Positions 6,532 through 33,451 of a DNA stretch of 34,938 bases are shown one piece after another (position 1 is the stretch's first letter; every line of letters begins with the position of its first letter). Below the pieces are notes generated by a model. It was not told where the DNA came from and did no database searches. It saw only the letters and a program-made list of their open reading frames with translations. The stretch lies in IMG/VR virus record IMGVR_UViG_3300030107_003954, positions 1-34,938 of that record; one strand, 5' to 3'. Both the position numbers and the translations under genes were made by a program. This DNA comes from a virus.

Positions 6532-8754
6532 ATGGTAAACAATAATATATGGTTAGGTGCAGGAACTACTGTAACAATGGTTCCTGAAACGGATTTGTAT
6601 GTCAAATTAACGGCAACAAGTTCATCAGCAGGAACAGGTGCATTTAGTCACCTATGGAAAGTTCAGACACACGCTGATTTTAGCGGAAAATACAGTTTGG
6701 TGGATGATTTATATGTTGGTTGTGTAGCCGATATTTACAATTCATCAAATACTTATCAATCTACTCACGTTATTGCAAAAAATACTGGTGACTTAATTTA
6801 CTTTAATGTAGACCCTTCAAAAGTTAGTGGAGATTATCTAATTATTAGAAAATACGGAAGTCCTGTTCCATCAACAAAAGGAACAGGAAATGTAACTTTA
6901 CAAGATGCTACTGTTTCAGCAGCAGGAACTAATATTGCTGCTTCTTTATCTATTTTAGATAATGCAGAAATTCTTGGCTCAGGTATTACAAGTGGAACAG
7001 GTGGAGAAATTAAATTAAATCTTACAGCACATCAAACTGTTTTAACATTTGCTACATCTACTGCCACTAATTATGAAGATAATGATGGAGGCCATCATGG
7101 TTTCTTTACATTAAGTATAGCAGGAATGGATGCTACGGAAACATTAGCAGTTCATTTTGATGACGATAATACTGCTGCTAAATCATCTGGCGCAAATAGA
7201 GATATTACTGTTGATATTTTAACTGCAAGTCCTTTTGATGATGGAAATACTATTGCTGAAGCAGTTAGATTAGCATTAGCAGATGAAGATTTAGTAGTAG
7301 TTAGAACTAATAACCAATTAACAATTACTAATTCGGTTGGTGGATATGTTGCTAATACAACAGAAGATACTAATGGTGGAGTAACTGTAACAAGTAATAC
7401 TGCTGGCGGAGTTTGCACAAGTGCTACTGTAATAAGTGTTGGAACAGGATATGGTGCTAATGATACAGGAAGAACAATAACAATTACTAATTCTGCTGGA
7501 GATGACCCTCAAATTGCAGTTACAATGCAAAGTGCTGGTGGTGCAAGATTATTGGCAGATAATTGGCTAGGATTAGTTAATACTGTTTCTTTCCCAAATT
7601 CTGAAGTAGAAATGAAACAAATGAATCTTGGAATTGGTGGAAGTAGAAGTTGGACTCACCAATACAAGGGAATAGAAACTGCTCAAGGTGGAAATCTTGA
7701 TATTTCTGCTCATCATGGGTTATGGCTTTATTATGCATTAGGTGAATGTTTAACTGTTTCTGGTGCTGATTCTGATAATGGTGGTGTAGCATCGGGTGGA
7801 TTAACCACATCACATAGTAATGCAATTTTATATCATTCCGAATCAATTGAAAAAACAGGCCCAGTATTTTATAGAGCAGTTGGAAATAACATTTGTCCTC
7901 CTGTTTCGCCGTTAGATGCTACTGAGGCTGAAATGGATAGAATTACTTCTTTACCATCAGGAACATCTCAAATGAGTAACGGTATTACTTATACATTTGG
8001 TGAATCAAATGGCTCAACATTACCTTCTTTTGCCTTAGAAAGTGTTTATTCAAAACTATCTGCTACAACCCCGTATAAGACTACTCAAAGTCCACCCACG
8101 GCTGACGATGAAGCATTTGTTAGAATTGCAACAGGAAATATGGTTAATACATTAACTATGTCTGCTAATGAAAATGAAGAATTAAAGATGACTCTTGATT
8201 TAAACACTAAGGGTATAGTTCAACCTAATGCTACTTATGAAGCAAGAAATGCCGTAGAAAATGAAAGAGCATTCTTTGGTTATGGTTCAGCAAATGCTGA
8301 TGCTTCTGTAATGATTCAAGAATTTATGACACCTTTCTTCTTTTATGACGGAACAATTTCTGCATACGGTCAAGATTATCTAAAGATTACAAATATGACT
8401 TTAACTATTAATAATAACTTACAAGATAAAAGATATGTTGGTGGTTATGATAGAAAGAATAAATATGCTGTCGCTGCACAAAGAACTTATGAGTTAAGTT
8501 TAACAGGATATGTTACTGATTCAAAGGTTTTCCAAGATTTGAGAAATGAAAGTGAAGAATCAACAAGTCATATTACACTATTATTCCAAAAAGATAATGG
8601 TGAAAAGATTGAACTTAAATTTAAGGATTATTATACAACATCAAACAATTGGCCGGTTCCAGATGATAAAGGTGCAGTTCCTGTTGAATGGACAATTATG
8701 CCAAGAAATTTACAATCTTGTACTGTTATAAGTCATGCGGTATTAATGGGGTGA
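6532..8754 (+). CDS. Major tail tube protein with large inserted domains
   Basis: The 740-residue protein is assigned to the tail tube because its second half (from about residue 345) reads like a lambda gpV-type tube protein: a motif around NLGIGGSRSWTHQYKGIET, a long central beta region, and a C-terminal section with repeated beta strands (YELSLTGYVTD, ITLLFQKDNGEKIELKFKDY). It directly precedes the tail chaperone pair and tape measure, as expected. Tube proteins are usually 150-350 residues; here about 320 extra residues (roughly 20-340) form Thr/Ser/Gly-rich beta modules that would decorate the tube surface. The start follows AGGTGA by four bases. The length makes it one of the larger tube candidates, so cryo-EM-style confirmation would be informative. 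Confidence 0.7.
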   Translation: MVNNNIWLGAGTTVTMVPETDLYVKLTATSSSAGTGAFSHLWKVQTHADFSGKYSLVDDLYVGCVADIYNSSNTYQSTHVIAKNTGDLIYFNVDPSKVSGDYLIIRKYGSPVPSTKGTGNVTLQDATVSAAGTNIAASLSILDNAEILGSGITSGTGGEIKLNLTAHQTVLTFATSTATNYEDNDGGHHGFFTLSIAGMDATETLAVHFDDDNTAAKSSGANRDITVDILTASPFDDGNTIAEAVRLALADEDLVVVRTNNQLTITNSVGGYVANTTEDTNGGVTVTSNTAGGVCTSATVISVGTGYGANDTGRTITITNSAGDDPQIAVTMQSAGGARLLADNWLGLVNTVSFPNSEVEMKQMNLGIGGSRSWTHQYKGIETAQGGNLDISAHHGLWLYYALGECLTVSGADSDNGGVASGGLTTSHSNAILYHSESIEKTGPVFYRAVGNNICPPVSPLDATEAEMDRITSLPSGTSQMSNGITYTFGESNGSTLPSFALESVYSKLSATTPYKTTQSPPTADDEAFVRIATGNMVNTLTMSANENEELKMTLDLNTKGIVQPNATYEARNAVENERAFFGYGSANADASVMIQEFMTPFFFYDGTISAYGQDYLKITNMTLTINNNLQDKRYVGGYDRKNKYAVAAQRTYELSLTGYVTDSKVFQDLRNESEESTSHITLLFQKDNGEKIELKFKDYYTTSNNWPVPDDKGAVPVEWTIMPRNLQSCTVISHAVLMG

Positions 8755-8882: not shown

Positions 8883-8914
8883 TCCACCATGTATGTATGT
8901 AAATGGTCGGTGGA
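8883..8914 (+). promoter_or_regulatory. Hairpin covering the start region of the tail chaperone gene
   Basis: TCCACCAT (8883-8890) can pair with ATGG (8903-8906) and TGGA (8911-8914) with a four-base bulge, or TCCACC with GGTGGA (8909-8914). The 3' arm overlaps the purine-rich stretch just upstream of the chosen start at 8924, so folding could limit translation. The loop contains a short ATGT repeat. Confidence 0.4.
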
Positions 8915-8923
8915 TGTGAAAAA

Positions 8924-9292
8924 ATGTTTGAAGAAAAGAAAGTAGTAGGAAATAAAAATAGCCTGTTTGCGAAAGAAGAAAGCACTATGCATTATATTGA
9001 AAGTGCGCCCAATTCAGATGAATATCTGAAGATTTGGGTAAAAGAGCCAACATGGTTACAAATAGAAAAAGCAACAATGTCAGTAATGAATATTAATTCT
9101 AGAACAAAAGATATTGACGTTGATATGCAAGCCATGTATAAATACATGATTGAAAACTTTATTGATAAAACTGAGCCTTCGCTTAGTTCTATTGATTTAT
9201 TACGATTATCGCCCTATGTGGGCAATCAGATTAAAGAAGTTCTCCCTAATCCATTTGATATGATGCAGGGGGATGAGGAAAAAAACGAATGA
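8924..9292 (+). CDS. Tail assembly chaperone, upstream frame (G-like)
   Basis: A 122-residue acidic protein immediately upstream of the tape measure region, in the position of lambda gene G. Tail assembly chaperones coat the tape measure protein and recruit tube subunits. The C-terminal third is helical (MYKYMIENFIDKTEPSLSSI) as in this class. The start at 8924 follows GGTGGATGTGA by a few bases; an in-frame ATG at 8903 lacks such a signal. The last codons read GAA AAA AAC GAA TGA, forming the slippery heptamer A AAA AAC at 9280-9286. A -1 slip would fuse this protein to the downstream frame and give a product of about 196 residues. Confidence 0.75.
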   Translation: MFEEKKVVGNKNSLFAKEESTMHYIESAPNSDEYLKIWVKEPTWLQIEKATMSVMNINSRTKDIDVDMQAMYKYMIENFIDKTEPSLSSIDLLRLSPYVGNQIKEVLPNPFDMMQGDEEKNE

Positions 9293-9344
9293 TTGAGAGA
9301 GCAATAAAGTCGGGAACAGATGACCCGACTCTTGCCTCTCGATT
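9277..9344 (+). promoter_or_regulatory. -1 programmed ribosomal frameshift signal (slippery site plus stem-loop)
   Basis: The heptamer A AAA AAC sits at 9280-9286 in the correct phase of the upstream frame. Eight bases later a long stem-loop begins: GAGAG (9295-9299) pairs with CTCTC (9336-9340), GCAA (9301-9304) with TTGC (9332-9335), and AGTCGGG (9308-9314) with CCCGACT (9324-9330), leaving a nine-base loop. Weaker pairs extend the base to 9291-9344. The -1 frame is closed by TGA at 9274-9276, so the slip must occur between there and the zero-frame stop at 9290, exactly where the heptamer lies. This matches the known architecture of phage tail chaperone frameshifts. Confidence 0.88.
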
Positions 9345-9513
9345 AGCAGTTTATTCCCTATCAGTTGGAATGGGTATAAGCCCATTAGAAGTCTATAATA
9401 TGCCAAGTGAATTATTCAAAGATATGCTAATGATTCACAATAATGTTGAAAAATATAAGGCAGAAAAAATGGAAGAGGAAAATAGAAAAGCGAGAAGTAA
9501 ATTTAATAGGTGA
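9289..9513 (+). CDS. Tail assembly chaperone, downstream frame (T-like), made by -1 frameshift
   Basis: A 74-codon frame, -1 relative to the upstream chaperone, overlapping its end by four bases (ATGA). It corresponds to the T part of a G-T fusion: the helical sequence includes LASRLAVYSLSVGMGISPLE and a highly charged C-terminal helix (KAEKMEEENRKARSK). It could start at its own ATG at 9289, but no good ribosome binding site precedes it, while a complete -1 slippage signal overlaps the junction. The expected fusion reads ...E-K-K-R-M-I-E at the joint. The tape measure gene follows after five bases. Confidence 0.8.
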   Translation: MIERAIKSGTDDPTLASRLAVYSLSVGMGISPLEVYNMPSELFKDMLMIHNNVEKYKAEKMEEENRKARSKFNR

Positions 9514-9518
9514 TTTAA

Positions 9519-11423
9519 TTGGCTAGAGGTAATTTGACTGACGTTAAAAAACGTTATGATGATTTAGCCAAATCAATTTCAGATTCAAAATCAGATATTT
9601 CTGCTGTTTCTGATTCTCTAAGAAGAATGTTCAATGTATTACAAAAAATTAATAAACCTATGGGTGATTTTTTAGATGCATTTGGTGATATAAATACCAA
9701 AGCGGGTAAGGCAGTTGAATCAGTAAAGAAGCAAGCGGAGGCGATGGCTGAACTTACGGAAACCACAACAAATGTTACTAACGTTACTAATCAGCAAACG
9801 GTTCAAATGGCCGAGAGAATTAAACTCGATAAAGCGCAATTTTCGCAATTAAAAAGATTAATTAAAGGTAAAAAGGAAGCAGTTGTTCAAGAAGAAGAAT
9901 TAATAGATGGGTCTAAAAGATTCAAAGATAGTCTTCTTAATTTGCGAACAGAAATATCTTCAGTTACAGAAGTAACAAAAGATATGGGTAAAGGTTTCTT
10001 TGAAAGTGCTTCTAACTCAAAAGCATGGACGGCTGCTTCAAGAGTTCTTTCCGGTTCGGGGCTTTGGAAAGTCCAAAATCGAATTAGGGCTTTAATTGAC
10101 GTTGGTGCTATTTGGGAAAAGAGTAAAGCCAAATCCGCAGAAAAACGTGCTAAAGAAACAAGAGCAATAGAAAATTTAAGAAAAGTTCAAGAACAATTAG
10201 CAAGTCAAACTAAGTTACTTGCTGATGCTGAAAATGATGCAGCAAAAATGAAAGACTTAATGGAAACAGATAGTTATAAATTAATGCAGAAAAGGGGCTT
10301 AGAACATGACCAAATCATACATTATATGAGAGAAGAATTAGCATTAATGGATGACCAACTTGAAGCCCAAAATAAAATTATTAAGGGTAGTAAACTTAAA
10401 AGAAATATAGAAGCAGCGAAAGCCACATTAGATATGGGAATAGTTAAATTAACAGGTGGAAAAGATAGTATGACTATAAACCAAGAAGAGTTGGAAAAGA
10501 TTGCTAGAAAAAATAATGTTTCACTAGAAGAACTGACTGATGAACAGAAAGAAGAAGCAAAAGGTAGAGCAAATAGAAGAAAAGTGTTCCAAAAAAGCGC
10601 ATTTATGATGGTGTATTTTAGTATAGCATTAATGGCGTTTATATTATTATCATTTGTAATTTTTGGTGCAATTGCTGACATAAAGGATAATATTGAAGAA
10701 GGAAAGGGAATGTGGCTTGTCGCTTGGCAAATGGTTAGTTTATTATTTAATACAGGTTTTGCCATTTTACAAGAAGCATTTGGTTTTGTTTCTGATTTAA
10801 TTAATGGTAATATGGATGGTGCGATGGACCATGCCATGAAACTTATGGACAAGTTACTAATTTTTGCTGGAGTTGCTTTAGGAACTATTGCGGTAATTGG
10901 ATTTAATTTATTAGCATCTCTTTGGAGTGGAATTCACAGATGGTGGACTGAGGCTGAAGACGGTACAAGAAGAAAATTATTTGTTATGTTAGTTAAAGCA
11001 TTAGGGTGGTTTGCTGGATATTTACTTATTCGTTATATTGTTGTTGAGATTGCGGCCATTGCCGCAGGTATTCTTGGTTCAATACCTTTGTTTGTTGTTG
11101 CTCTTGGTGCAGTAATTATTGCTGGTATTGCAACATTACTTTCTGCCTTGCCTTTTATGTCAGCAGGTGGAACTTCTCATGGTGGATTAACAGTTGTTGG
11201 AGAACAAGGTCCAGAATTAATTAATACAAAGCCCGGAGATAAAATTATTAATCACACCAATACTAGAAAAATGGTTGGTAGAAATGGTGCATCAAATAAT
11301 ATCACAGTAAATGTTAATGGTAGATTAGGGGCATCCGACCAAGAATTAAAGGATTTGGCCAGAAAACTAGGCCCACTAATTTTACAAGAAATTAATAGAA
11401 AGACTTCTGCAAATATGTATTAG
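9519..11423 (+). CDS. Tape measure protein
   Basis: The 634-residue protein spans the tail lumen and sets tail length. It has a long charged coiled-coil-rich N-terminal half (about residues 1-340), several hydrophobic segments between about 360 and 545 (for example MMVYFSIALMAFILLSFVIF and AAIAAGILGSIPLFVVALGA), and a C-terminal Gly-rich section with GGLTVVGEQGPELI, a motif frequently found in tape measure proteins. The TTG start at 9519 follows GGTGAT by four bases. It is on the short side for a siphovirus, pointing to a tail of roughly 95 nm if the usual 1.5 angstroms per residue holds. It directly follows the chaperone pair, as expected. Confidence 0.85.
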   Translation: MARGNLTDVKKRYDDLAKSISDSKSDISAVSDSLRRMFNVLQKINKPMGDFLDAFGDINTKAGKAVESVKKQAEAMAELTETTTNVTNVTNQQTVQMAERIKLDKAQFSQLKRLIKGKKEAVVQEEELIDGSKRFKDSLLNLRTEISSVTEVTKDMGKGFFESASNSKAWTAASRVLSGSGLWKVQNRIRALIDVGAIWEKSKAKSAEKRAKETRAIENLRKVQEQLASQTKLLADAENDAAKMKDLMETDSYKLMQKRGLEHDQIIHYMREELALMDDQLEAQNKIIKGSKLKRNIEAAKATLDMGIVKLTGGKDSMTINQEELEKIARKNNVSLEELTDEQKEEAKGRANRRKVFQKSAFMMVYFSIALMAFILLSFVIFGAIADIKDNIEEGKGMWLVAWQMVSLLFNTGFAILQEAFGFVSDLINGNMDGAMDHAMKLMDKLLIFAGVALGTIAVIGFNLLASLWSGIHRWWTEAEDGTRRKLFVMLVKALGWFAGYLLIRYIVVEIAAIAAGILGSIPLFVVALGAVIIAGIATLLSALPFMSAGGTSHGGLTVVGEQGPELINTKPGDKIINHTNTRKMVGRNGASNNITVNVNGRLGASDQELKDLARKLGPLILQEINRKTSANMY

Positions 11424-12413: not shown

Positions 12414-14484
12414 GTATGAATTAAAGATTGGGGAAAACAAATCCTTAGTGTTTCCCGTTATGTGTTATGGTTATTTAACCATTGATTATGATAAACACGT
12501 ACCCAATAGAAATACCGCCACAACAACAGATGATGTAACTTATGGTGTATTTGGTCACGATGATTCCTTTACAATTGCGACAGTTATTACGCCTTATGAC
12601 GTTAATGGGTTGGGTGCAGATTTAGAGGGTAATAGTGGAACAGGTCTACATCCCTTTAATCCTGCTGGTATAACTGATTCTAAGAAAACAATGCCTTCTC
12701 AACAAAGAGATAGATATACTGTTGGTTCTACTATTATTGATTCAGGGGATTCAACATCTTCATATTCATCTGCTAAAAAAACACAATCATATAATTATTT
12801 AGCAACAACCGGAACAAATGAAAGATACAATCATGAAATGATGTTATTTTATAGTAGTAATGTTCAATTATCTTTAGTGAATAATACACCTTCCCCTGAC
12901 TCATCAACAAATTTTATTCATCATAATCAACCATCAGAATATAAAGTAAAATTCACTGTTATAGGGGATGGTGCTAGTGATACTTTAACATCTAATGTAT
13001 TAATTTCTTCTGATTCTATATCTTCGTCAACCTCTGGGAATCCTTCAGATTTAATGCAAGAAGGTTATGATTCAAAAACTCCTGAAGTTAGTTATAAAAA
13101 AATAGGAGAAGGAATATCAGGATTTCAACAACTCGTTTCAACAGGAATTACTACTGTTGGCGCACCCATGAATAGTAATACACCAATTGAAGTTACTGCT
13201 GACCCAACAAGTGCTATATTTGAGGGAGATGAACTTTATCTTTCTGGTGGAACTTATGTTGGAACGGTGGTAAGTCGCGGAACTGGACCAGATGTAATTG
13301 AAGTAATGAATTTGGCTGGTGAAACAAGTATTACTCCTAGTTCTACTTTATATTCTAATCACACTATTTCGGGCTACCGTGGTAATAATTTTACTACTAT
13401 TGAAACTAGAGATTTTTTTAATAAAGGGGAAGAATTATACATATACGAGGAACCTAATGCTACGGGTATTGCTAATAATATTGGTAATTTTAGAAAAATA
13501 GGAAGTGTTCTTAACACAACAAATGGAAATATAAGAATTGCATGGGATAATGATTTTAGTAGATATAGCCCAAATTATGCTGGAACTAAAGGTAAAGAAT
13601 TTGTTACCCCATTTGGTTCATCAAGTGATTATTCGACAGGAATACTTACTAATGGTTCTGCGACTTCAGCAACTTGGGCCGTTGATACAGTAGATGCAAG
13701 AACAAAACTATCTATTGGAGATATAGTAGGAAATGGCTCTAGTGCTGATGGTACATTAACTACCGTAAATGAAACTTCGATTGTGTTATCACATTCAGCA
13801 AGTTATACAAATAATAATCAAATTTATACATTTCCCGCATTTTATAGGAAGATTAAAAAAGAAGCAAGTTATTTAGTTAATACACATTTGGTAGCAGCAA
13901 GTTTTGATAAAGTATCTGGCGAAATGGCAATTTATTACAATGGTGTTAAAGTATCAAAAAAATTACATAGTTCTACACCGGTGTCTAGTTTTTCATTTCC
14001 TTTAGAAGATTATTACATTGGGGCAAAAGCCGATTATACTGTTACTGCTGCAACTAATGGTAGTTCAACAGTTCTTACTGTCGATAATGGCCCAAGAATT
14101 GCACACCAAACTAATACTCTTAATACAAATACTAATGTTAGTTCGGGACTTGTCGTTGGACAAACTGTCTATAATAATATAGGTCAAATAATTGGAACCA
14201 TTAGTGCCATTAGTAGTGCTACAATTACTTTCTTAGAAAACATTAAAATAAATTTAGCAACAGGAGATACTCTATATAAATTAAGTAGTGCTTCTGATTC
14301 AGATACTGATGGTAATCCTAATATAGATTCTCCTTCAGTTAGAAAGCAATTTATGGGGGAATTACATGAATTTGCTATTACTAGTGGTGTTTGGGATTCT
14401 TTCTTAACCACGAATACATTAATCCCACCATATAGAAGATTATTATTATATTATAGATTTAGACAGGAGGAATTAGATGACTAG
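12412..14484 (+). CDS. Baseplate or fibre protein with interrupted laminin G-like lectin fold
   Basis: The 690-residue protein seems to carry a concanavalin A/laminin G-type sandwich whose two parts are far apart. An opening strand typical of the fold (SFTIATVITPYDV) lies at about residues 51-63, while the later strands HLVAASFDKVSGEMAIYYNG, DYYIGA and FMGELHEFAI lie in the last third. Between and within them are three copies of the beta module also found in the flanking tail genes (coding regions near 13190-13370, 13650-13830 and 14035-14285). Such folds usually bind carbohydrate, which suggests host surface binding. The gene overlaps the next by eight bases. Confidence 0.6.
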   Translation: MYELKIGENKSLVFPVMCYGYLTIDYDKHVPNRNTATTTDDVTYGVFGHDDSFTIATVITPYDVNGLGADLEGNSGTGLHPFNPAGITDSKKTMPSQQRDRYTVGSTIIDSGDSTSSYSSAKKTQSYNYLATTGTNERYNHEMMLFYSSNVQLSLVNNTPSPDSSTNFIHHNQPSEYKVKFTVIGDGASDTLTSNVLISSDSISSSTSGNPSDLMQEGYDSKTPEVSYKKIGEGISGFQQLVSTGITTVGAPMNSNTPIEVTADPTSAIFEGDELYLSGGTYVGTVVSRGTGPDVIEVMNLAGETSITPSSTLYSNHTISGYRGNNFTTIETRDFFNKGEELYIYEEPNATGIANNIGNFRKIGSVLNTTNGNIRIAWDNDFSRYSPNYAGTKGKEFVTPFGSSSDYSTGILTNGSATSATWAVDTVDARTKLSIGDIVGNGSSADGTLTTVNETSIVLSHSASYTNNNQIYTFPAFYRKIKKEASYLVNTHLVAASFDKVSGEMAIYYNGVKVSKKLHSSTPVSSFSFPLEDYYIGAKADYTVTAATNGSSTVLTVDNGPRIAHQTNTLNTNTNVSSGLVVGQTVYNNIGQIIGTISAISSATITFLENIKINLATGDTLYKLSSASDSDTDGNPNIDSPSVRKQFMGELHEFAITSGVWDSFLTTNTLIPPYRRLLLYYRFRQEELDD

Positions 14485-17400
14485 AACCCATATTAATGAT
14501 AATTATAGTAAATTATTTATTATGTCTAAAGGGTTTGCGCCCGGACCTAATCCTGATACAACAAATTATGATGATGCTTATAATAACGTTCCTGTTAATC
14601 CTTTGATTATTTGTAATGGTGGTAAATTAAATCTAACAAATGTATTGATTAATAATGGCTCAGGATATGCTCAAGGTGCTTCTACCACACTTGCCGTTGA
14701 TGGAGATTCTGCAAAAGAACACTTTCAAAAAGGAGATAGAGTTTGGGCATTTGGAACACCAATGTCTTTGGTAGGAATAGTTGATAGTGTAACTGATGTG
14801 CAAATTACATTAAATGCCCCAAATGCTACAATACTTAGTAATAATGACACATTATACACAGAAAGGAATTATGTCGCTTGTTATGAAATTAGAAAAACTA
14901 AACAAGACCCTGTTAATTCTGCGAGTCATAGTGCAACATTAATGGCTGCTATTTCTGCAACAAATCAAACCACCATTACTGTTTCTAACATTGATACCTT
15001 TACAAGTACAGGTGTTGTAAAAATAGGTAGTGAAATTATAAGATATACAAGTATTAATAATAATGATTTAGTATTATCTACCTCAAGTTATAGAGGCTTT
15101 TTATCAACAACTGCTGCAACACATTCTGTTGGTGCTATTGTTTATCAATTAGGAAATCCTTATGGGACTGAAGCATTAAATATGAAAGGGGTTTCTAATT
15201 CTGAAACATATCCTTTATTAAATAGAGTTTACCCAAATGATAATAATCCAAAAACTAGTTTTGAAAATATAGGTTTTACTAAAGGTCATAAAATTAAATC
15301 TTATTCGGGAATAACACCATTCGATTCTGGAATAAATGCCGCAGCCACTTATGCTGCTTCAGAAACTAATGCAATTACTGTTAGTGCAGACCCAACAACA
15401 ACATTTGATATAGGAGATACAATTTTTCTTACAGGTAATGTCGCAATAGGTGAAGTATCTGCTTTAACTGCATCACCACATAAAATATATTTAACAACAA
15501 ATAATCATGTAGCAATATCTAATACTGCTGATATTTTTGTAGGCGGTAAGGGTTTATTGTTGCCTTCCACTCTAATTGATGATTATGACCACTTTGTTTT
15601 ATTGCATTCTGATGATGCTAAAAAACACCATTTTGCTAAAATAACATCAATAACTTCTGACGATATAATGGGAGATTCATTTGAATTTTCCCCCGTTTAT
15701 GGTTCAGAATTATCTAAAGGTGTTACATATTCAATATACAAGGGACCAAAGGTTGAAAAAGAATTAAGCATAACTTCTGTTACTAATGCCAATCCAGCAG
15801 TATTTACTACTTCCGTTGCTCATAACTTTTCAGTAGGAGATGAAGTTAATATAACAGATTGTAATGCAACTACATATGATTCTTTCAATTTAATTAACGG
15901 TAAACACACTATTACCGCAGTAAGTAGTTCAACTCAATTTACAATTAGTAATGCTGTGAATGGTAATCTTAGAACTTCAGGGACAGGTAATAAAGGAAAA
16001 GTTACTTTAATTTCACCCGTTGTAGCGGTGGGTTACGGGTTATATGGCGCAAGAACATCAATAAATCCTGCTGATGGAACCGATAAAACACATCCAGTAT
16101 TTTTTAATGAATATGGTAGTGATTCTGATACTTCAGATGGAACAGGTAATGCTAAAGATAGTAGACATATTGGCATGACTTATATTAATGCCCCCTTATT
16201 TTATTTCTATAATGATAGATTAAAAAATAAAAATCAATTAGATAATAGTTCTAAATATAAATTAAATTATTCTAGGTCAAATGGACTTCAAGAAACTCAT
16301 TATCAAAGATGCTTCTTAACACAAGAAGGTAAAGGAACTATCATTACAGATTATAGTAAATATGGGATGGAAGCAACAGTTAATGATATTTTAAGGGATA
16401 AAGATGCAATTAATAAATCAGTTCAATCTATAGAACATTATAACGAAACTAAAAATACAGCATATAGTGTGGATTTATCAGATTGGCAAGAATGTTTTGT
16501 AAATGTAAATAGAAGTAATAAAGATTTGGCTCGCAGCACTGAAACAACAAATCATTCTTTTACAGGCCCAACAAGATATTTGCATTTTGATAATTCTCCT
16601 GTTCAAACTAATTCTATCCCAGAATTATCTTCAATTGAAGTTATGGAATCAGCAGATGGGCTATCTTCTTATGCAGAATTAAATATTGTTGATACTAAAA
16701 AAATATATGGTTCTAAAATTAAAAGATTTGACCCGTTTACCTTGAATAAAGTATTAGATAGTGGTAATATTTCAAGAGAATATAACATTATATTGCCAGG
16801 ATTGGCAACGGCAACTCTTGGTGGAACACAATTAGTTGTTGATTATTTAGAATATAATATGGATTTAAGAGCGATATTAAAATATGGAGATGAATACGAA
16901 ATTATTAAAGTGGGCGATTATTACTATATGCCTACATCTATTGCCGCACCTAATTCTTCAGGAGGAACAGGGTTTTATTATTCGCAAACAATTACAATAG
17001 GTGCTTATAGAAAATATGATTCAGCAAAATGGTCTTATCCTAGTAGTAGAACTATTCAAGAAACATTAACAGGTTCCCCTTTACTTAGAAAATCATGGGG
17101 TCCAATAACAAATACATTGTTAACTCCTACATTAGATATAGATACTTTTGCTAATTTTACAAATATTGGTGAAATAAACCAAACTGTAGAATTAACATTT
17201 GGTAATACTCCATTATCATTAAAATCGGAAGCCCGCTTAAATAAGATGAAATTAAAATTGATAGATGGTTCTTCTAATGGCTATGAGTTTGATATTGAAT
17301 ACGGCGATGGTAGATTAAAATTCATTAAATTAGAAAATCAAAGACCTCAAATGTATAATGCTGAATATCAATTAGATGCTAATATATTAGATTATTATAC

Positions 17401-20400
17401 AGGTAAATATGTAATAAATAAAACTCCAGTAAAGGGGACGATAGAAGATATTGAAGATTTTGTGGAACAAGGATATTTAAAATATAAAATTAGTGGTAGA
17501 AATAAAAGTTCAGACTTAATTGGTCCAATTATAAATAAAAATTATAAATTTTCTGATGATATTGTTTATTCAACTATTGGCCCTGTTGTTGACATTGAAG
17601 ATACTAATATGTCAATTAATAATGGCGCGGGGTATGAAGTAGGGCAAACTGCTGCTATGACAATTGATGGTTCAAATAGTCAATTAGCATTGGGAGATAA
17701 TATCTTTACAAGTCAAGGTGAATTAATTGGTGAAGTTACTGCATTTAATAGCACTTCTGTTACTGTTGCAGGTGGAATTTTAGTTAAATTGGCTGATGAT
17801 GATAAAATTTATAGAGCAACTACAACTAAAAATAATATTTCATTTGCTAAGGCTATGTCTGCTAATCCTCATACTGCTACTGTATCAAGTCTTTCGGGTG
17901 CAGCGGATAAAGGAATTGTTTTTAGTGGTGGAAACAGTTTAATTAAATCTAATGGTATTCCTACGACAGAAGGTGCAACTTTACTTAGCACTTCTAGTAA
18001 TTCAAATAGAGATGCATTGGGTTATTCTTTAAATTTACCAGATTCTATACATTTAGATTTACCTTTTTATTCAAAATTGGCCGATGAAATATCTACTACT
18101 GAATATAAAGAACTCCATACTCCTTCCGCTCTTTCAAATTATACCATTATGGGTTTAGAAAAAACTGAAGGAATTACCTCTTTACAATTAATGCCTAATT
18201 CCCCAATTATTATGGGAAGAATTGATGAAAATCCCGAAGACATTAGATTATTAAAAGAAGATTTAATTAATACAAATCTTTCTGTTGAAAAAGATACTAA
18301 TGGTCATGCTGGGTATAATTTAACCTTTGATGCTGATATTTATTCACAAGTGGGAGATGATGGAAGAATAACTGATATAGGGGATGATATTTATAATTCT
18401 GATGGAGAATACATTGGTAGAGTAGTATATAAATCTAAAATTGATGCTAATACTTATAATATTTCTTTTGATAAAATAAGAACAATTAGTCCAAGTGTGG
18501 CTCATAATGGGTTTGCATTATACAGAAGTAATAAACAATATCAACATTTATATTTAGCAAATACTCAAGGTTTAGATGAAGGTGGTAATTTACAATTAGT
18601 TAATTCTACATTAGATAATTCTGGTAAACCTGCTCAATATGCATTTAGTGTATTAGATAATATATTAAATTCAACTATTGACACAAGTTATATTAATAGA
18701 TATAAATCTCAAAACTATAGGTTCTTTAATTTACAAAAAGGAAAACCTAATTCATTAGGGTTTAGGGAATTAGATATTAGTAATTCATCTACGGCTAATA
18801 TAGGTAAATTAAAATATAAAGACTTTTATACTGAGGAATTAGGTCAAATTAATAATTATGCTTTAGCATATAAATATAATCCCGGCGTTAAAAATACAAA
18901 ACTCACAATCAATAATTTTGAAAAGATTTCAGTAAACGCTTATGATAATTTACCCACTCCTAATTTAGGATTAGTTCCAGCAAACGGTAGTGCTTTCCAT
19001 GATTATTTAAGTTCAGATTCAACGCTTTGGGATTTATTAGCGAAATCTTTAATTGATGGTGATTGCGGGGTATTGACATTAACAGGTGATTCAAAAAGTT
19101 TAATAAATATTAACCCTATACAAAAAGTCAAAGATACTTTTAATCATGTTGACCCTAAAGCAACAACATTACATATGTTTAGTATTTCAGATTTATATCC
19201 TGAAAGTAAAAGAAGAGGAAATAATTTAATGAATCAAGTTAGATTATTAACTGATTATAGTTTACTAATTAAAAATAAAACCGGAGAAAGAACGTCAAAT
19301 GTTATTCATAATAATTATAAGGGAACATTACCTGAAAATGATGCGGTTGATGAAAGTTATGAAATAGCAACCATTAATACTTCTTCTCATACCTCTGATG
19401 AAATTAAAAGATTTGGCTTATTAAGATTAATAGAAGTAACTTATGATTGGAGATTTAATTCTGTAGATTTTGAAAACCCTCCTAGTAAAAATAGACAAAT
19501 AGATAATACTCAGTATTATATGAAATATTTACCTATTATTGCAACAGGTGATACAGTTACTGCTATATCTGGAACAACAATTACGTGTGGTGCAGCCGCA
19601 AATAATTGTGTTATTCATGATAGAGTTTATACAAATAAGGGGCATTATATTGGAACTATTTCAGCAATAAATCAAGGTGGAAGTAATACTCAATACACTT
19701 TATCCCAAAATGCTAAATATAATCCGGTTGATGGTGAATATTATACAGGTGCATTATATCGTTCTCAATATGGAAAAAGAAGTGGTGGCGCATATTTGAA
19801 TCCTTGGTCGGGTAGTGGTCCAAATAATTATACAGGACTTACATACGATACTACATTTAATTTTATGAAATATGAAATTTTAGGTAATTCTCAATTAAGC
19901 CAAAATATTCCTTGGGAGGATTCAAGTGATACAAATTACAAGAAAAAGGTAAATCTTCTTAAAGGTTCTATTACAGGTGGAGGCGCAATTAGTGGAACTA
20001 TTTCTGATGTTTATTATGCTATGCAATCTTCACCTTCTAATAAAAGAACTGGTGATATAAATAGTGCTACTGCTGATTATAATGTAATGTTGCCTGCCCA
20101 TTTTAATGTCCCCTCAATCGGGCTTTCAGCATTAACTGGTTGGGCAACTATTACTGATTATTGGAATAGAAGTGATAGTAGCGCAGTAAGCGTAAAAGAA
20201 AAGGGGTTTATTCATTCAGATTCAATTATGAGATTTATTGGTGAAAGAGATACTGTTCATATTGACGACTATGCTGGATTAACAAAAATATCAGGTTATG
20301 CCAATCTTTGGTTTAATTTCCAAGCATTAGTGGTTAGGGGATATACTATTGCTGATACTCATAGTGTTGGTAAGGCTTTACCGGGAATGTCTGGTATTTT

Positions 20401-22783
20401 GGCTAGAACAATAAGAAGAACAAATGGTGGTAGTAATGCATCAACGGCTAGAAGTAATTTCCCTGATTCAATTACAATTAGTTATGATGGAACCAATAAA
20501 TATTGTGACAATAGCGTTTCTGAAAAATCACTAATGGGGATTGATGAAGTTAGAGGCAGCGGCGCACATTTACTTTTTAAACCTGTTTTTTGTTTTAAAG
20601 AAGGAACTCTTGCCCATAATAGTGATGAAGTAGGTGGAACAACAAACAAATTAGTAAATATAATTTCTCCCATAATTGGTGTTACTGTTAGAGTAAATCA
20701 CCCAAGTTCGGGAAGTTACAGTTCAACAGATACTATTGCAATTGATGATGGTGCGGGTAATGCAATAGATTCTGATGGTATTGTTGTAGGAGATAAAATC
20801 TTTAGAAATAATTCAGGAACAGCACACGATTATGTTGGTGTAGTTGAATCCGTAACAGGAACCCAAATTGTATTTGAATCAAATGTAGCAGTAACTTTAG
20901 CGGATAATGATGTATTAAAGGTTTCTAGTTTCGTTTATTCTAATACAAGTTTAGGTGTAAATAGTTCTGCTCAACATAGAATGATTACAATAAGAACAAC
21001 AGACATAGCAACCGCTGAAGAAAGTGCAACAAATAATAATTGGGTAAGACACGCGCCTAATTTAACAGGAAATTATTTAGTATCTAAATCTGGAAAAATA
21101 CATGGCGGAACAAAGGATGACGGAGTTACAGAATTAACTAATGAAGATAAATTATGGCTTAGTTGTTATGATGTTGTTCCTGATAAAATCCATAAAATTG
21201 TTTCTCATACTTGCCGTAATAAAGGTAGGGTTCAATTCCACGATTTAATAATAGATAACGTAAATAGTAATGGTGACTTTAAAGTATGGTATAAATTATT
21301 CAGGCCCGCCCATGTTGCGATAAATGCAGGTTGTCCTAATGAAATAAAACTTAATACTATGAGTTCTAAATATACTAAAAACCCGTTAAGTAAAAACAAA
21401 ACATTTTTAGATGATGTAGCAAGTTGGTCTTATCATAGTAAAGATAAGGATGATTATGCTAATGTTGGTCGGGCGAAATATGATAGTAGCGGTAATATTG
21501 ATTCAGCAAGTAGAAAAATGGATTACAATGAAGCAGCATTATCTATGTATTTAGTAGTTGATTCTGATGCGAGTAATTACACTTCTAGTGCAGATTATTC
21601 ATTTTTAGAACATAGAAAACATAATACTTATTTCCAAGAAAATTCTATATTTAGTTTAGGTACAACATATGAAATTGGTATAACTGATGGTAGAAATAAA
21701 CAAAAAATGACAATGACTCCACTTTCTAGAATAAATGGAACTTATCTTAAATTTGATGGAAATATGCCAACTATTAGCGGCTTAGCATCAATAGGAGAAA
21801 TTATTACTTTAACAACAGGTTCACCAATTAGCACAGATAATCCAGAATCTGCTAGAATAGGTTCAACTGTTACAATATCAAGTGAAGCAGAAGATATTAT
21901 TAAAGATATATTACATACAAATAACATTACATATACTAAATTCCCTAAAGAATACCCTTACTATGTTGCGCCAAATATACAGGGTGCTGATATTAATAGT
22001 ACTATTAAATTCTTGGCAGCATTTAAAAATAAAGATATAATTATAGATGTAGATGAGATTAAATTACAATCCAAATCTTCGGGATTAAGAAAAACAAATG
22101 TTGAATTAAACACAAAGAGTAATAAAATCCATGTAATTTCAGTAAAAAGTAAAAAATCTTCATTTGGTTTCTACAACCATGTAACAGTATATGGTAATGG
22201 AGTAAAAGCAGTTAAACAAGATTCTAGAAGTATTAAAAAAGTAGGTAAAAAGAGTTTAGAAAGATATGATGACCATTTATTGAGTAAAGCCGAAGTCGAA
22301 GATAAGGCTAGAGTGTTATTAACTCAACATAATTTATCAAATCAACATTTAGAAATAGAAGTATTTGATAAGAATATAGGTTTAATTAAACCGGGCGACA
22401 TAATAATGGTAAATATGCCAGATGAACAAATTGAAGTAGATTCTTATATGGTCTTTGAAATGTTACATAATAGTGGTGGAACTGTAACTTTACAATTAGG
22501 AAGATATAGACAGGGTTTAGAAACAACTTTAGCCGAAATGCTAACACAAAATAAAAAGACAGTTTCTAAATTTAGAGGAAGTAAATTCAAATCACCTGCA
22601 ATTATTGAAAGTTTCACTGATTCTGTTAAAATAAAGCCAGTAAGACTTATAGTAAACAAAATAACAACATTAGGTGGCGGCAATTTCGTTGGGTTTAATA
22701 CCCTGCTTGGCTTCTCAACTTACATGGGGATGGCCTCAAGCACTACTACTAACATTCTCAATAAAGATTTAACAGGTGATTAA
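14477..22783 (+). CDS. Giant baseplate hub / tail fibre fusion protein (2768 residues)
   Basis: The largest gene of the window. Hub-like parts (gp27/gpD type) are recognisable but scattered: SSIEVMESADGLSSYAELNI near residue 720, a stretch with YLKYKISGRNKSSDLIGPII near 1005-1025, and the C-terminal 250 residues with YNHVTVYGNGVKAVKQD, a helix of A-rich repeats and GLIKPGDIIMVNMPDEQIEV. Inserted among them are at least six copies of the shared beta module, one E1-FCCH-like module (coding about 15775-15985, VAHNFSVGDEVNI) and one module with the pattern VKIGSEIIRYT...RGFLSTTAATHSVGAIV (about 14980-15150). The start follows AGGAGG by six bases. The hub core caps the tail tube; the added modules probably form host-contacting or structural extensions. 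Confidence 0.7.
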   Translation: MTRTHINDNYSKLFIMSKGFAPGPNPDTTNYDDAYNNVPVNPLIICNGGKLNLTNVLINNGSGYAQGASTTLAVDGDSAKEHFQKGDRVWAFGTPMSLVGIVDSVTDVQITLNAPNATILSNNDTLYTERNYVACYEIRKTKQDPVNSASHSATLMAAISATNQTTITVSNIDTFTSTGVVKIGSEIIRYTSINNNDLVLSTSSYRGFLSTTAATHSVGAIVYQLGNPYGTEALNMKGVSNSETYPLLNRVYPNDNNPKTSFENIGFTKGHKIKSYSGITPFDSGINAAATYAASETNAITVSADPTTTFDIGDTIFLTGNVAIGEVSALTASPHKIYLTTNNHVAISNTADIFVGGKGLLLPSTLIDDYDHFVLLHSDDAKKHHFAKITSITSDDIMGDSFEFSPVYGSELSKGVTYSIYKGPKVEKELSITSVTNANPAVFTTSVAHNFSVGDEVNITDCNATTYDSFNLINGKHTITAVSSSTQFTISNAVNGNLRTSGTGNKGKVTLISPVVAVGYGLYGARTSINPADGTDKTHPVFFNEYGSDSDTSDGTGNAKDSRHIGMTYINAPLFYFYNDRLKNKNQLDNSSKYKLNYSRSNGLQETHYQRCFLTQEGKGTIITDYSKYGMEATVNDILRDKDAINKSVQSIEHYNETKNTAYSVDLSDWQECFVNVNRSNKDLARSTETTNHSFTGPTRYLHFDNSPVQTNSIPELSSIEVMESADGLSSYAELNIVDTKKIYGSKIKRFDPFTLNKVLDSGNISREYNIILPGLATATLGGTQLVVDYLEYNMDLRAILKYGDEYEIIKVGDYYYMPTSIAAPNSSGGTGFYYSQTITIGAYRKYDSAKWSYPSSRTIQETLTGSPLLRKSWGPITNTLLTPTLDIDTFANFTNIGEINQTVELTFGNTPLSLKSEARLNKMKLKLIDGSSNGYEFDIEYGDGRLKFIKLENQRPQMYNAEYQLDANILDYYTGKYVINKTPVKGTIEDIEDFVEQGYLKYKISGRNKSSDLIGPIINKNYKFSDDIVYSTIGPVVDIEDTNMSINNGAGYEVGQTAAMTIDGSNSQLALGDNIFTSQGELIGEVTAFNSTSVTVAGGILVKLADDDKIYRATTTKNNISFAKAMSANPHTATVSSLSGAADKGIVFSGGNSLIKSNGIPTTEGATLLSTSSNSNRDALGYSLNLPDSIHLDLPFYSKLADEISTTEYKELHTPSALSNYTIMGLEKTEGITSLQLMPNSPIIMGRIDENPEDIRLLKEDLINTNLSVEKDTNGHAGYNLTFDADIYSQVGDDGRITDIGDDIYNSDGEYIGRVVYKSKIDANTYNISFDKIRTISPSVAHNGFALYRSNKQYQHLYLANTQGLDEGGNLQLVNSTLDNSGKPAQYAFSVLDNILNSTIDTSYINRYKSQNYRFFNLQKGKPNSLGFRELDISNSSTANIGKLKYKDFYTEELGQINNYALAYKYNPGVKNTKLTINNFEKISVNAYDNLPTPNLGLVPANGSAFHDYLSSDSTLWDLLAKSLIDGDCGVLTLTGDSKSLININPIQKVKDTFNHVDPKATTLHMFSISDLYPESKRRGNNLMNQVRLLTDYSLLIKNKTGERTSNVIHNNYKGTLPENDAVDESYEIATINTSSHTSDEIKRFGLLRLIEVTYDWRFNSVDFENPPSKNRQIDNTQYYMKYLPIIATGDTVTAISGTTITCGAAANNCVIHDRVYTNKGHYIGTISAINQGGSNTQYTLSQNAKYNPVDGEYYTGALYRSQYGKRSGGAYLNPWSGSGPNNYTGLTYDTTFNFMKYEILGNSQLSQNIPWEDSSDTNYKKKVNLLKGSITGGGAISGTISDVYYAMQSSPSNKRTGDINSATADYNVMLPAHFNVPSIGLSALTGWATITDYWNRSDSSAVSVKEKGFIHSDSIMRFIGERDTVHIDDYAGLTKISGYANLWFNFQALVVRGYTIADTHSVGKALPGMSGILARTIRRTNGGSNASTARSNFPDSITISYDGTNKYCDNSVSEKSLMGIDEVRGSGAHLLFKPVFCFKEGTLAHNSDEVGGTTNKLVNIISPIIGVTVRVNHPSSGSYSSTDTIAIDDGAGNAIDSDGIVVGDKIFRNNSGTAHDYVGVVESVTGTQIVFESNVAVTLADNDVLKVSSFVYSNTSLGVNSSAQHRMITIRTTDIATAEESATNNNWVRHAPNLTGNYLVSKSGKIHGGTKDDGVTELTNEDKLWLSCYDVVPDKIHKIVSHTCRNKGRVQFHDLIIDNVNSNGDFKVWYKLFRPAHVAINAGCPNEIKLNTMSSKYTKNPLSKNKTFLDDVASWSYHSKDKDDYANVGRAKYDSSGNIDSASRKMDYNEAALSMYLVVDSDASNYTSSADYSFLEHRKHNTYFQENSIFSLGTTYEIGITDGRNKQKMTMTPLSRINGTYLKFDGNMPTISGLASIGEIITLTTGSPISTDNPESARIGSTVTISSEAEDIIKDILHTNNITYTKFPKEYPYYVAPNIQGADINSTIKFLAAFKNKDIIIDVDEIKLQSKSSGLRKTNVELNTKSNKIHVISVKSKKSSFGFYNHVTVYGNGVKAVKQDSRSIKKVGKKSLERYDDHLLSKAEVEDKARVLLTQHNLSNQHLEIEVFDKNIGLIKPGDIIMVNMPDEQIEVDSYMVFEMLHNSGGTVTLQLGRYRQGLETTLAEMLTQNKKTVSKFRGSKFKSPAIIESFTDSVKIKPVRLIVNKITTLGGGNFVGFNTLLGFSTYMGMASSTTTNILNKDLTGD

Positions 22784-30517: not shown

Positions 30518-31306
30518 TTACATCCACTCACTTAAATTTTTCTGTTTTTCATCTATCATAAATTCTCTAACATTCCAGCCCATAGCATCATAAATTGGCT
30601 TGGCCTTTTTAACAATTGCGTTTGCATACGCGCCCCAATCAGGGGTATATTTTTCATTAAACTCTTTCATCTCCTTAACAGCAATATAACTCGCTCTTCT
30701 TTCTTTTCCATTTGGTAATATGATAAATTGCGGCCCAACTATATTTGAACATTGTAAGTATAAGAAAGAATCTTCAATAGGATTATCGGGGTCAATGTGT
30801 TGATTGTAATAACATACACCCGCCATTCCGCCTGAAATAGATTTGTAATCTTCTAATTTACGTCTAACTCTTTTTTGTTTAACAATATCAGATAATTCAT
30901 ATCTTCCATGTTTCGCATCATTATAAATTCCTTTACAAAACATATTTATTTCTTCTAGTGTTTCTTCTGAAACCCATCGTTGTAATAATTCTTTTTGAAA
31001 ATCACGACAAATTTTACTTTCGCTTCTTCTCTTCATAGAATATCCCGTTACAACAAATTCGGGATTATCTAAATAATAGCCATCTTTCCAAGATATAAAT
31101 CCTGCATTTCTATTTTTCTTAATTCCAACACCTAATGTCTTATAGAACTTTTCAAATTCTAATTGAACAGGGTGATTATCTAAACCTAAAATATTAGGAA
31201 ATGATTCTTGCACCTTAGAATTAATTTCTTTACAAATTACTTGTGCCTTATCTACATTTTCAATAGGAATGTAGATTGAATCTGTGTGTGCATAAACTAC
31301 TTTCAT
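30518..31306 (-). CDS. DNA polymerase B, C-terminal fragment (palm motif C and thumb)
   Basis: The 262-residue protein begins almost exactly at polymerase motif C: YAHTDSIYI at residues 5-13. The canonical sequence is YxDTDS; here the first Asp is His while the second, catalytically essential in studied family B enzymes, remains. The thumb-side KKxYxG motif appears as KKNRNAG and is followed by GYSMKRRSE. A GGTGAT lies five bases before the start and the ATG overlaps the stop of the gene before it. Joined to the upstream fragment it completes a polymerase of about 810 residues. Confidence 0.88.
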   Translation of the reverse strand: MKVVYAHTDSIYIPIENVDKAQVICKEINSKVQESFPNILGLDNHPVQLEFEKFYKTLGVGIKKNRNAGFISWKDGYYLDNPEFVVTGYSMKRRSESKICRDFQKELLQRWVSEETLEEINMFCKGIYNDAKHGRYELSDIVKQKRVRRKLEDYKSISGGMAGVCYYNQHIDPDNPIEDSFLYLQCSNIVGPQFIILPNGKERRASYIAVKEMKEFNEKYTPDWGAYANAIVKKAKPIYDAMGWNVREFMIDEKQKNLSEWM

Positions 31307-31554
31307 TCTTCATCACCCATCCATTTCCATATAGTTCTACTTTTTGAAGTTGTATATTTTTGCTTTATTCCTACTTTAGGATTGGCATATAGTAAATTAG
31401 ATAATCTTTGAGCATTGACCATTAAATGTGTTGTGCCATACCCATGATTATTGGTATAACTATTTAAAATATCCATTAATTGTTGGGTAGTAAATTCCCC
31501 AAGTTGTTCTGCTTCTTTATTAATTCTATTTTTAAGAATTTTATGTCTAGGCAT
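31303..31554 (-). CDS. Small winged-helix-like protein lodged between the polymerase halves
   Basis: The 83-residue basic protein has a helix-turn-helix look: FTTQQLMDILNSY, then MVNAQRLSNLLYANPKVG, and a terminal strand SRTIWKW. This resembles small winged-helix DNA-binding proteins. It shares its first bases with the stop of the N-terminal polymerase gene (TAATG) and its last with the start of the C-terminal gene (ATGA), so all three are translationally coupled. GGAGATGG precedes the start. It is not an intein, since it is a separate frame without splicing motifs. It may regulate the operon or join the polymerase complex. Confidence 0.65.
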   Translation of the reverse strand: MPRHKILKNRINKEAEQLGEFTTQQLMDILNSYTNNHGYGTTHLMVNAQRLSNLLYANPKVGIKQKYTTSKSRTIWKWMGDEE

Positions 31555-33200
31555 TATTCCATCTCCTGTGCGGTAAATGCTGCTAATCTTGTTGCTTCTC
31601 TTGCACTTGCAGTAATTGAAGCCGCTAATGTAACATCAGCCCAACCAAATCCTTGATAGGCTAATACGCCATAAAATGACGCCATTAATCTTTTAACAGC
31701 CAATTGATTATTATCCCAATTAAGTCTTTCTGTATCAGTTGTTGCTTCTTTCTTTCTACGCTTATATTCATCACGCAAAGTTTTCAATTCTAATACTGAA
31801 CGAGGTAAAAGTCCTAATTCATCTGTTTTGAAATACACCCATTTCTCTTCAGTTACAGGACTTAAATCTCTTGGTGTCATAATATTTACCTTAAATTCAG
31901 TTGGTATTGGACTACGAGTTTCCCATGAAATGTTTCTTGCAATCATCATTGACGGGTATAGACCTGCGAAATCAAATGCCGCTACATTTTTATATAATCC
32001 TTGAGTCCCATATTTCTTAGGTTCATAGATTAGTGCGCCATCGTATTCTTCACGCATTTTAGATTTATCACCTGTTGGTGCTTTCCACCATGCATTACGC
32101 ATAAAATAAATGCTACCCATATTTGACGCATAAAAGCAAGCATCAAATGGTGCGACTAGTAATCTTTGTAGTGCTAATACACCTTCAGATAAAGCCATTT
32201 CTTCATCTATACGCTTAAGCAATTCACTATCCTTAAGAGCATAAGTAAGATAATTTTCCGTATCTTCTAACCATCCTCTTCTAAAAAATTCATTCTTATC
32301 TGGAAACTTTTCTGATACTAATTTCTTATCACCCAATACTAACTCAGATACAAAATCAAGAGCCATTGAGGGTAATGTCCCACGTTGCGAATCATTCCAT
32401 TGTCGTTCAAAAGCAAGGTCTAAGTTCAATGTAATTCTTCCGCGTATAGGTTGAGAAACCGGAGAATACTTATCAACATAATCTGAAACCTTTCCTCCTT
32501 CAACACCTTTCACATCATTATACGGTGAAAGTAGTCTTGGGTCAATGTCATTATACGCAAGTCTATGAATCAACTTTGGCATATCTGCAAAATTACCAAA
32601 CCATGTTATGAGCATATCAGGGTCTTGTTCTCGCATATCATTGACGTATGCTTCAAGCATTTCTTTTTCACTATCATAAGCATCTCCCATGTGAGGATGT
32701 ATTCCTTTAGGTAGCCAATAATAAATTGTATATTTGTCTGTATAGTTATCGTATAGTGAAATAGCCGTAATCGCATCACCATGTATAGGGTCATTATTCA
32801 CCCATTCCATATCCCAATACCACTTTCGCATATTGTATTCCTTTATCTCTTCTAAGTTATCAACACAATAACGGTTGATAAAAGGAACATCACCTTCATA
32901 CGTCTTAGGCCACATCTTACGCGCATACTTAATATCATCAGGTTTGAGAACCTTTACCTTCTTCAACTTCTTCTTCTGAAGATTATACCATTCACCTTCT
33001 TCATAGCGGAAAGGATATTCTAATTTAATACGCTTCCCATTGACTGATACCGAGGTGGTATAGGCTTCCGGTTCGTCCTCTAAAGCATAGATATAGAAAT
33101 ATGGGTCGAAATCTGTAATCGTAGATTCTTGTCTATTCCCATCTTCATCGCGCCATCTTAGATTTATAGCACGATTTGCATCTGTATAACATATAATCAT
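31554..33200 (-). CDS. polB: DNA polymerase B, N-terminal fragment (exonuclease, motifs A and B)
   Basis: The 548-residue protein carries the family B N-terminal and 3'-5' exonuclease domains: Exo I D130-x-E132 (YWDMEW), Exo II with D206 (GNFADMPKL), Exo III Y320-x3-D324 (YALKDSEL). The palm follows with motif A at 410-417 (DFAGLYPS) and motif B K503 to G511 (KRLMASFYG). It stops at TAQEME, right before the position where motif C would follow. All proofreading residues are present, so the enzyme should be proofreading-competent once joined with the C-terminal fragment. The ATG at 33200 follows GGAGTGAT; a GTG at 33209 lies inside that signal. Confidence 0.9.
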   Translation of the reverse strand: MIICYTDANRAINLRWRDEDGNRQESTITDFDPYFYIYALEDEPEAYTTSVSVNGKRIKLEYPFRYEEGEWYNLQKKKLKKVKVLKPDDIKYARKMWPKTYEGDVPFINRYCVDNLEEIKEYNMRKWYWDMEWVNNDPIHGDAITAISLYDNYTDKYTIYYWLPKGIHPHMGDAYDSEKEMLEAYVNDMREQDPDMLITWFGNFADMPKLIHRLAYNDIDPRLLSPYNDVKGVEGGKVSDYVDKYSPVSQPIRGRITLNLDLAFERQWNDSQRGTLPSMALDFVSELVLGDKKLVSEKFPDKNEFFRRGWLEDTENYLTYALKDSELLKRIDEEMALSEGVLALQRLLVAPFDACFYASNMGSIYFMRNAWWKAPTGDKSKMREEYDGALIYEPKKYGTQGLYKNVAAFDFAGLYPSMMIARNISWETRSPIPTEFKVNIMTPRDLSPVTEEKWVYFKTDELGLLPRSVLELKTLRDEYKRRKKEATTDTERLNWDNNQLAVKRLMASFYGVLAYQGFGWADVTLAASITASAREATRLAAFTAQEME

Positions 33201-33205
33201 ATTAA

Positions 33206-33451
33206 TCACTCCAATGGGTCTTTTATATTAATATCACCAAGAACCCAACGAAGTGCTTGAACAACACCTTGAAGGGCTTTAAAATTTCTAACGTGATATA
33301 CTTTATCTAATTTTCTTATTGCAGAATGAGCCTCAGTTTCATGAAAATTCATTTTTCTTTCTGCTCTATCTAACATATCTTCAATTTCTCCCCAACTTCT
33401 ATCGTAGGAAAAATGTTCACTATCTTGATGGTCACTCATTTCTTTCGCCAT
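33206..33451 (-). CDS. Small hypothetical protein
   Basis: An 81-residue, charged, helical protein (SYDRSWGEIEDMLDRAERKM; NFKALQGVVQALRWVLGDIN). The start at 33451 follows GGTGA by four bases; an earlier TTG at 33463 is rejected because it lies inside that context. It overlaps the end of the zinc ribbon frame upstream and is followed closely by the polymerase start. No domain is recognised. A polymerase-accessory role is possible from location only. Confidence 0.55.
   Translation of the reverse strand: MAKEMSDHQDSEHFSYDRSWGEIEDMLDRAERKMNFHETEAHSAIRKLDKVYHVRNFKALQGVVQALRWVLGDINIKDPLE

Follow-up and report, generated by a model that had tools for sequence, protein, structure and literature searches.

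A three-part cassette predicted to direct -1 frameshifting between tail assembly chaperone frames in a probable magrovirus and its relatives

In phage lambda, the tail chaperone genes G and T are expressed as a major gpG and a minor gpGT product (PMC5009743), the same gene position and product logic as at the locus described here. The two differ in slippery sequence and have no detected sequence relation, and the product ratio has been measured in lambda whereas our locus is known from sequence. The initial annotation of this locus described such frameshifts as well known in bacterial phages. The signal is not a first for archaeal viruses either: -1 G-T frameshifting with heptamers of this kind has already been described for haloarchaeal viruses (PMC5009743; PMC8211752), with Atkins et al. 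(PMC5009743) crediting archaeal viruses. The haloarchaeal tailed viruses HCTV-2, HCTV-1, HCTV-5 and HVTV-1 share the gene order tail tube, chaperone, joined chaperone, tape measure, and the HCTV-2 record contains a joined chaperone CDS with an A AAA AAC heptamer, identical to ours, followed directly by TGA. By eye, the C-terminus of G in our locus, LGSQLQQHLPDP, also resembles that of HCTV-2, VGNQLKEILPNP. HCTV-2 differs in having neither a significant downstream stem (z 0.22) nor a GGAGG/GGGGG block, whereas the magrovirus-like loci reported below mostly have both. A cassette with all three parts, namely a Shine-Dalgarno (SD)-like block, an A-rich heptamer and a 3' stem, is found in the -1 signal of Escherichia coli dnaX, which encodes an unrelated protein. 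In phage Mu, the tail chaperone frameshift is -2 (PMC5009743), as we propose for 12 relatives of our locus; Mu is bacterial and uses another slippery sequence, and the locus itself is -1. Outside viruses, the Saccharolobus fucA1 gene uses an archaeal -1 shift on an A-AAA-AAT heptamer with a putative stem (PMC8211752). That gene encodes a cellular enzyme and, unlike our locus, has no tail context. To our knowledge, this is the only cellular gene in which archaeal frameshifting has been studied, and the remaining cases are a few predictions in haloarchaeal viruses. The portions of the magrovirus papers covered by our search make no mention of frameshifting. The cassette described here is an unusually well supported further case of the already known -1 G-T signals, and the -2 group among its relatives would be the new part.

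The locus lies in a 35-kb virus record (IMGVR_UViG_3300030107_003954, positions 1-34,938), which was analyzed whole and is hereafter called the window. According to the ORF map, the plus strand encodes virion proteins and the minus strand replication proteins, and all features of the locus are on the plus strand. The tail tube or major tail protein gene (6532-8754; Pfam Phage_tube_2, E 3.8e-16; phrog_290, tail) is followed by gene G (8924-9292), which encodes a predicted tail assembly chaperone of 122 aa in the zero frame; its start was set at 8924 from the alignment, and the mechanical ORF begins at 8903. The T frame (9286-9513) is in -1 relative to G and runs from CGA at 9286-9288 for 75 codons to a stop at 9511-9513. 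Downstream, positions 9519-11423 encode the tape measure protein (3.4e-6 to phrog_19914, tail length tape measure), so that the order of tail tube, G, overlapping T and tape measure is that of G/GT tail chaperone cassettes. Both frames are related to known tail assembly chaperones: phrog_25860 was matched by 17 of 20 members of the G family, and phrog_9001 by 14 of 33 T members (best 2.5e-5). Foldseek searches with the structure predicted for G by AlphaFold (pLDDT 85) matched the Haloarcula hispanica tailed virus 2 (HHTV-2) tail assembly chaperone (E 6.7e-7) and a Bacillus phage chaperone (1.8e-4), with weak matches to Mu FS-gp41 (E 6.7e-3) and the HCTV-2 chaperone; against the PDB, the G fold returned nothing significant, with YqbN at E 0.65 only. 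The tail tube protein has 740 aa in the window and about 500-550 aa in many relatives, which suggests an inserted stretch, and one relative (L051) carries an additional 285-aa open frame between tail tube and G.

The end of G reads GAG GAA AAA AAC GAA TGA, which places the heptamer A AAA AAC (9280-9286) in X XXY YYZ phase inside the G/T overlap, as had been read originally. The -1 frame is closed upstream by a TGA at 9274-9276 and G ends at a TGA at 9290-9292, inside the base of the downstream stem; both flanking stops had been noted before, at a distance of four bases, and each is in fact 3 nt from the heptamer. An ATG at 9289-9291 overlaps the G stop (ATGA), and a T-only ORF would begin there.

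For comparison, related loci were collected through a tail tube search (71 related virus contigs), a G-protein alignment search (415 contigs matched, 80 kept) and a pattern scan which added further relatives. The scan selected one heptamer variant, and the tail tube and G searches were free of heptamer selection. Removal of duplicates left 103 distinct regions including the window; another five G matches were left out because they do not contain the exact LPNP anchor. The T protein alone and the tape measure alone found no relatives as queries in viral contigs, and at the limits used no relatives of tail tube or G were found in named phage records. The comparison supports the original proposal of a -1 signal joining the tail chaperone frames. 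An in-phase X XXY YYZ heptamer precedes the G end in 103/103 regions, comprising AAAAAAC in 73, AAAAAAG in 22, AAAAAAA in 4, GGGAAAC in 2, and TTTAAAA and GGGAAAA in 1 each, proportions that are not unbiased because the pattern scan chose one variant. The codon before the heptamer encodes nine different amino acids, and its third base equals X in every region (log10 P about -22 against background codon use, with related sequences treated as independent). A zero-frame stop follows the heptamer by 3-6 nt in 91/103 regions, and the T frame opens just 3 nt before it in 77/103. In one relative (L072) the T frame ends about 11 codons past the heptamer, which looks like an internal deletion of T with G and heptamer intact.

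A third element had been missed in the initial annotation, whose description of heptamer and stem was otherwise sound: a purine-rich, SD-like GGGGG block that occupies 9268-9272 and is separated from the downstream heptamer by exactly 7 nt. GGAGG or GGGGG is found at exactly this distance in 80/103 regions. Where the block contains a glutamate codon it is always GAG (67/67), although GAG accounts for only 15% of glutamate codons in the rest of G, and where it contains a glycine codon it is GGG in 29 of 31 cases; selection thus acts on the bases of the block. The dnaX record has A AAA AAG with AGGGAG 10 nt upstream, where the window has A AAA AAC with GGGGG at 7 nt; apart from this spacing, the window contains the complete three-part cassette of the dnaX type. 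Pairing of the block with the anti-SD, as in dnaX, is its likely role. The label "eukaryote-like" used in the initial annotation fits the heptamer only, since the cassette also has an SD-like element on its 5' side, like bacterial dnaX.

The 3' stem-loop spans 9290-9345 and pairs 9290-9299 with 9336-9345, 9301-9304 with 9332-9335, and 9308-9314 with 9324-9330. The arms identified at the outset (GAGAG 9295-9299/CTCTC 9336-9340, GCAA 9301-9304/TTGC 9332-9335 and AGTCGGG 9308-9314/CCCGACT 9324-9330) are all confirmed, and five pairs are added (9290-9294 with 9341-9345). The earlier eight-base spacer holds for the strong part of the stem; with the added pairs, the full stem begins 3 nt past the heptamer and includes the zero-frame stop. 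In the window its minimum free energy is -29 kcal/mol, compared with -14.2 +/- 2.8 for shuffled sequences (z -5.3; 0/200 shuffles as good), and z is -6.6 against synonymous-codon recoding of T. RNAalifold returned no consensus structure for the full mixed alignment, probably because a few relatives carry indels or a different hairpin, and the stem was instead assessed by counting pairs per register and by recoding T with synonymous codons. Pairs were counted in 83 regions that align without gaps, leaving out those with indels or an alternative hairpin. In the predicted register 82% of cells are paired; sliding the register by up to 6 positions gives 37-58%, and the expectation when letters are shuffled within columns is 72 +/- 0.8%. 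Cells changed on both sides number 155 in the predicted register and 11-87 in slid registers. The comparison originally proposed, for a conserved heptamer and compensatory stem changes, finds an in-phase heptamer in every region and covariation in the stem. Synonymous recoding of T weakens the fold in 91/92 regions (mean z -3.7), with 0/100 recodings as good in 63 of them; relatedness inflates these stem statistics, and the slid registers and the recoding test carry the same relatedness. Some relatives have little or no stem (L002, L050 and L196, and L065 with a recoding z of +1.5), and a stem is thus not an absolute requirement. Relatives that keep both proteins and lack slippery site or stem had been named as grounds for rejecting the signal. 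On the slippery site the signal withstands this check, with one in all 103 regions; a few relatives are without a clear stem. In five others (L167, L168, L176, L181 and L186) a short GGAAGGC/GCCTTCC hairpin replaces the long stem at the same place, and the heptamer is A AAA AAG.

Programmed -1 frameshifting on one message, giving gpG and gpGT tail assembly chaperones, is very probably the function of this cassette. Ribosomes stopping at 9290 would produce gpG (122 aa), and a minor gpGT fusion of about 196 aa would come from ribosomes on which the tRNAs in both the P and A sites move back by one nucleotide at A AAA AAC. The stem may pause the ribosome, the purine block may pair with the 16S anti-SD as in dnaX, and a minority of ribosomes would shift; as in lambda, GT would couple the tape measure to the tail tube. 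What the sequences show is an in-phase heptamer in two overlapping frames, together with a stem and an upstream purine block, as well as the conservation and covariation of these elements. The statement that such a signal shows the mechanism to work on archaeal ribosomes was overstated; this is more than sequence alone can show. The junction peptide also needs revision. In tandem -1 slippage the A-site tRNA has already read AAC, so its zero-frame residue is retained and the junction should read E-K-N-R-M-I-E, not K-K-R-M-I-E as first predicted; detection of the latter would instead point to P-site-only slippage or transcriptional slippage.

The T frame could also be reached by termination and reinitiation, with G ending at the TGA at 9290 and a restart at the overlapping ATG at 9289 yielding free T and no fusion. 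Because of this ATGA overlap, production of T alone by reinitiation is also possible in the window, and among the 91 minus-1 loci T has an ATG in 36 and a GTG or TTG in 21. The other 34 have none of these start codons; T and the heptamer are nevertheless retained there, as are the SD-like block in 33 of the 34 and the stem in most. The block is moreover 16 nt from the ATG, beyond normal SD distance, and reinitiation leaves the heptamer phase and the preceding-base rule unexplained. As a full account of the locus we consider it improbable. Still less probable is transcriptional slippage, in which RNA polymerase would add an A within the A run such that some mRNAs encode the fusion in frame. The window has a run of 7 As, and runs of 6-7 are found in 99/103 loci; however, 24 loci have only 6, and in four the site is GGGAAAC, GGGAAAA or TTTAAAA, which are tRNA-slippage heptamers rather than long homopolymers. 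Codon phase would be irrelevant to a polymerase, and a nascent-RNA stem would form too late to act on it because the stem sits 3' of the slip site. That a Lys/Asn-rich C-terminus merely looks slippery by chance, with the stem a by-product of the T protein sequence, can practically be dismissed even in an AT-rich genome with an acidic, lysine-rich G C-terminus, given the invariant third base before the heptamer despite varied amino acids, the loss of the stem on synonymous recoding, and the exclusive use of GAG for glutamate in the upstream block.

Programmed frameshifting may also have changed direction within the family. In 12 distinct regions (L016, L034, L042, L044, L079, L084, L091, L092, L096, L116, L120 and L152) T is in the -2/+1 frame relative to G. 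All 12 read GAAAAAAAGG and, aligned with the others, miss one base directly after the A run, so that a -2 slip of both tRNAs would restore the junction, as K-K-R-M-I in 11 of the 12 and as K-K-R-T-I in L152. The stem persists in this group (recoding z -2.3 to -7.0). On the tree they lie inside one 21-row clade and require at least 3 state changes, which, with their occurrence across different metagenome assemblies, makes assembly error unlikely. An ATG near the G stop is retained in 11 of the 12; L152 has ACA in its place and another ATG further upstream, which the purine block abuts. Scans for more -2 loci without a nearby ATG recovered only L152's own contig. A +1 slip or separate initiation of T is a possible alternative for this group, and we see the case for an evolutionary change of slip direction within one archaeal virus family, mostly -1 and -2 in these 12 regions, as evenly balanced. 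If true, the group would represent the first archaeal -2 frameshift known to us, and the family would offer naturally occurring variants in which -1 and -2 slippage can be compared.

The collection holds roughly a hundred naturally occurring variants of a single signal, which differ in their heptamers, stems and start codons and even in the direction of the slip, from a magrovirus-like family that appears to belong to the abundant, uncultured viruses of the ocean. It makes testable what archaeal slippage may need, namely whether A AAA AAC is functional and an SD-like block contributes, and whether a single family is able to change between -1 and -2. In magrovirus-like genomes, T is easily missed or annotated as a separate gene.

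The window was originally taken to be a probable archaeal virus, which it very probably is; it is magrovirus-like, and an archaeal host is therefore likely. Aoguangviridae encode PolB as separate N- and C-terminal parts, have oppositely oriented structural and replication modules, and include a labelled tail assembly chaperone (PMC10768690). In the window, as expected for Magrovirales, PolB is encoded by two separate genes (31554-33209 and 30518-31306, each matching DNA_pol_B), and the structural and replication modules have opposite orientations. The PolB of ten long relatives is 49-68% identical to that of the window. Among named phage records, the window's PolB best matches haloarchaeal viruses, at about 25%. 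A Cpn60 chaperonin gene is present in 10/10 long relatives (GroEL-like by eye in the one read), and none was seen in the 35-kb fragment of the window itself; GroEL of several Marine Group II (MGII) virus clades is reported to group with Marine Group II sequences (PMC5332604). A PCNA_N search of the long relatives gave no match, so PCNA_N is not used as archaeal evidence. The split PolB, the opposed modules, and the chaperonin and PolB identity of the relatives point to a magrovirus with a Poseidoniales archaeon as its likely host. Scans of genome contigs gave no direct host link: the tail tube found nothing in GTDB genomes, and G found one magrovirus-like contig (L205) in a Maricaulis (bacterial) bin. 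This is probably a misbinned viral contig, and no host was inferred from it. In L205, which comes from another collection, a TGA comes immediately after G GGA AAC, T is in -1 and lacks a start codon, and the stem has z -4.1. Other features of the window include an 83-aa frame between the two PolB genes (within 30518-33209), an ORF at 776-1447 that adjoins the structural genes and weakly resembles small GTPases (Roc, MMR_HSR1; E about 0.003), and a giant 2768-aa open frame at 14477-22783 in the tail region.
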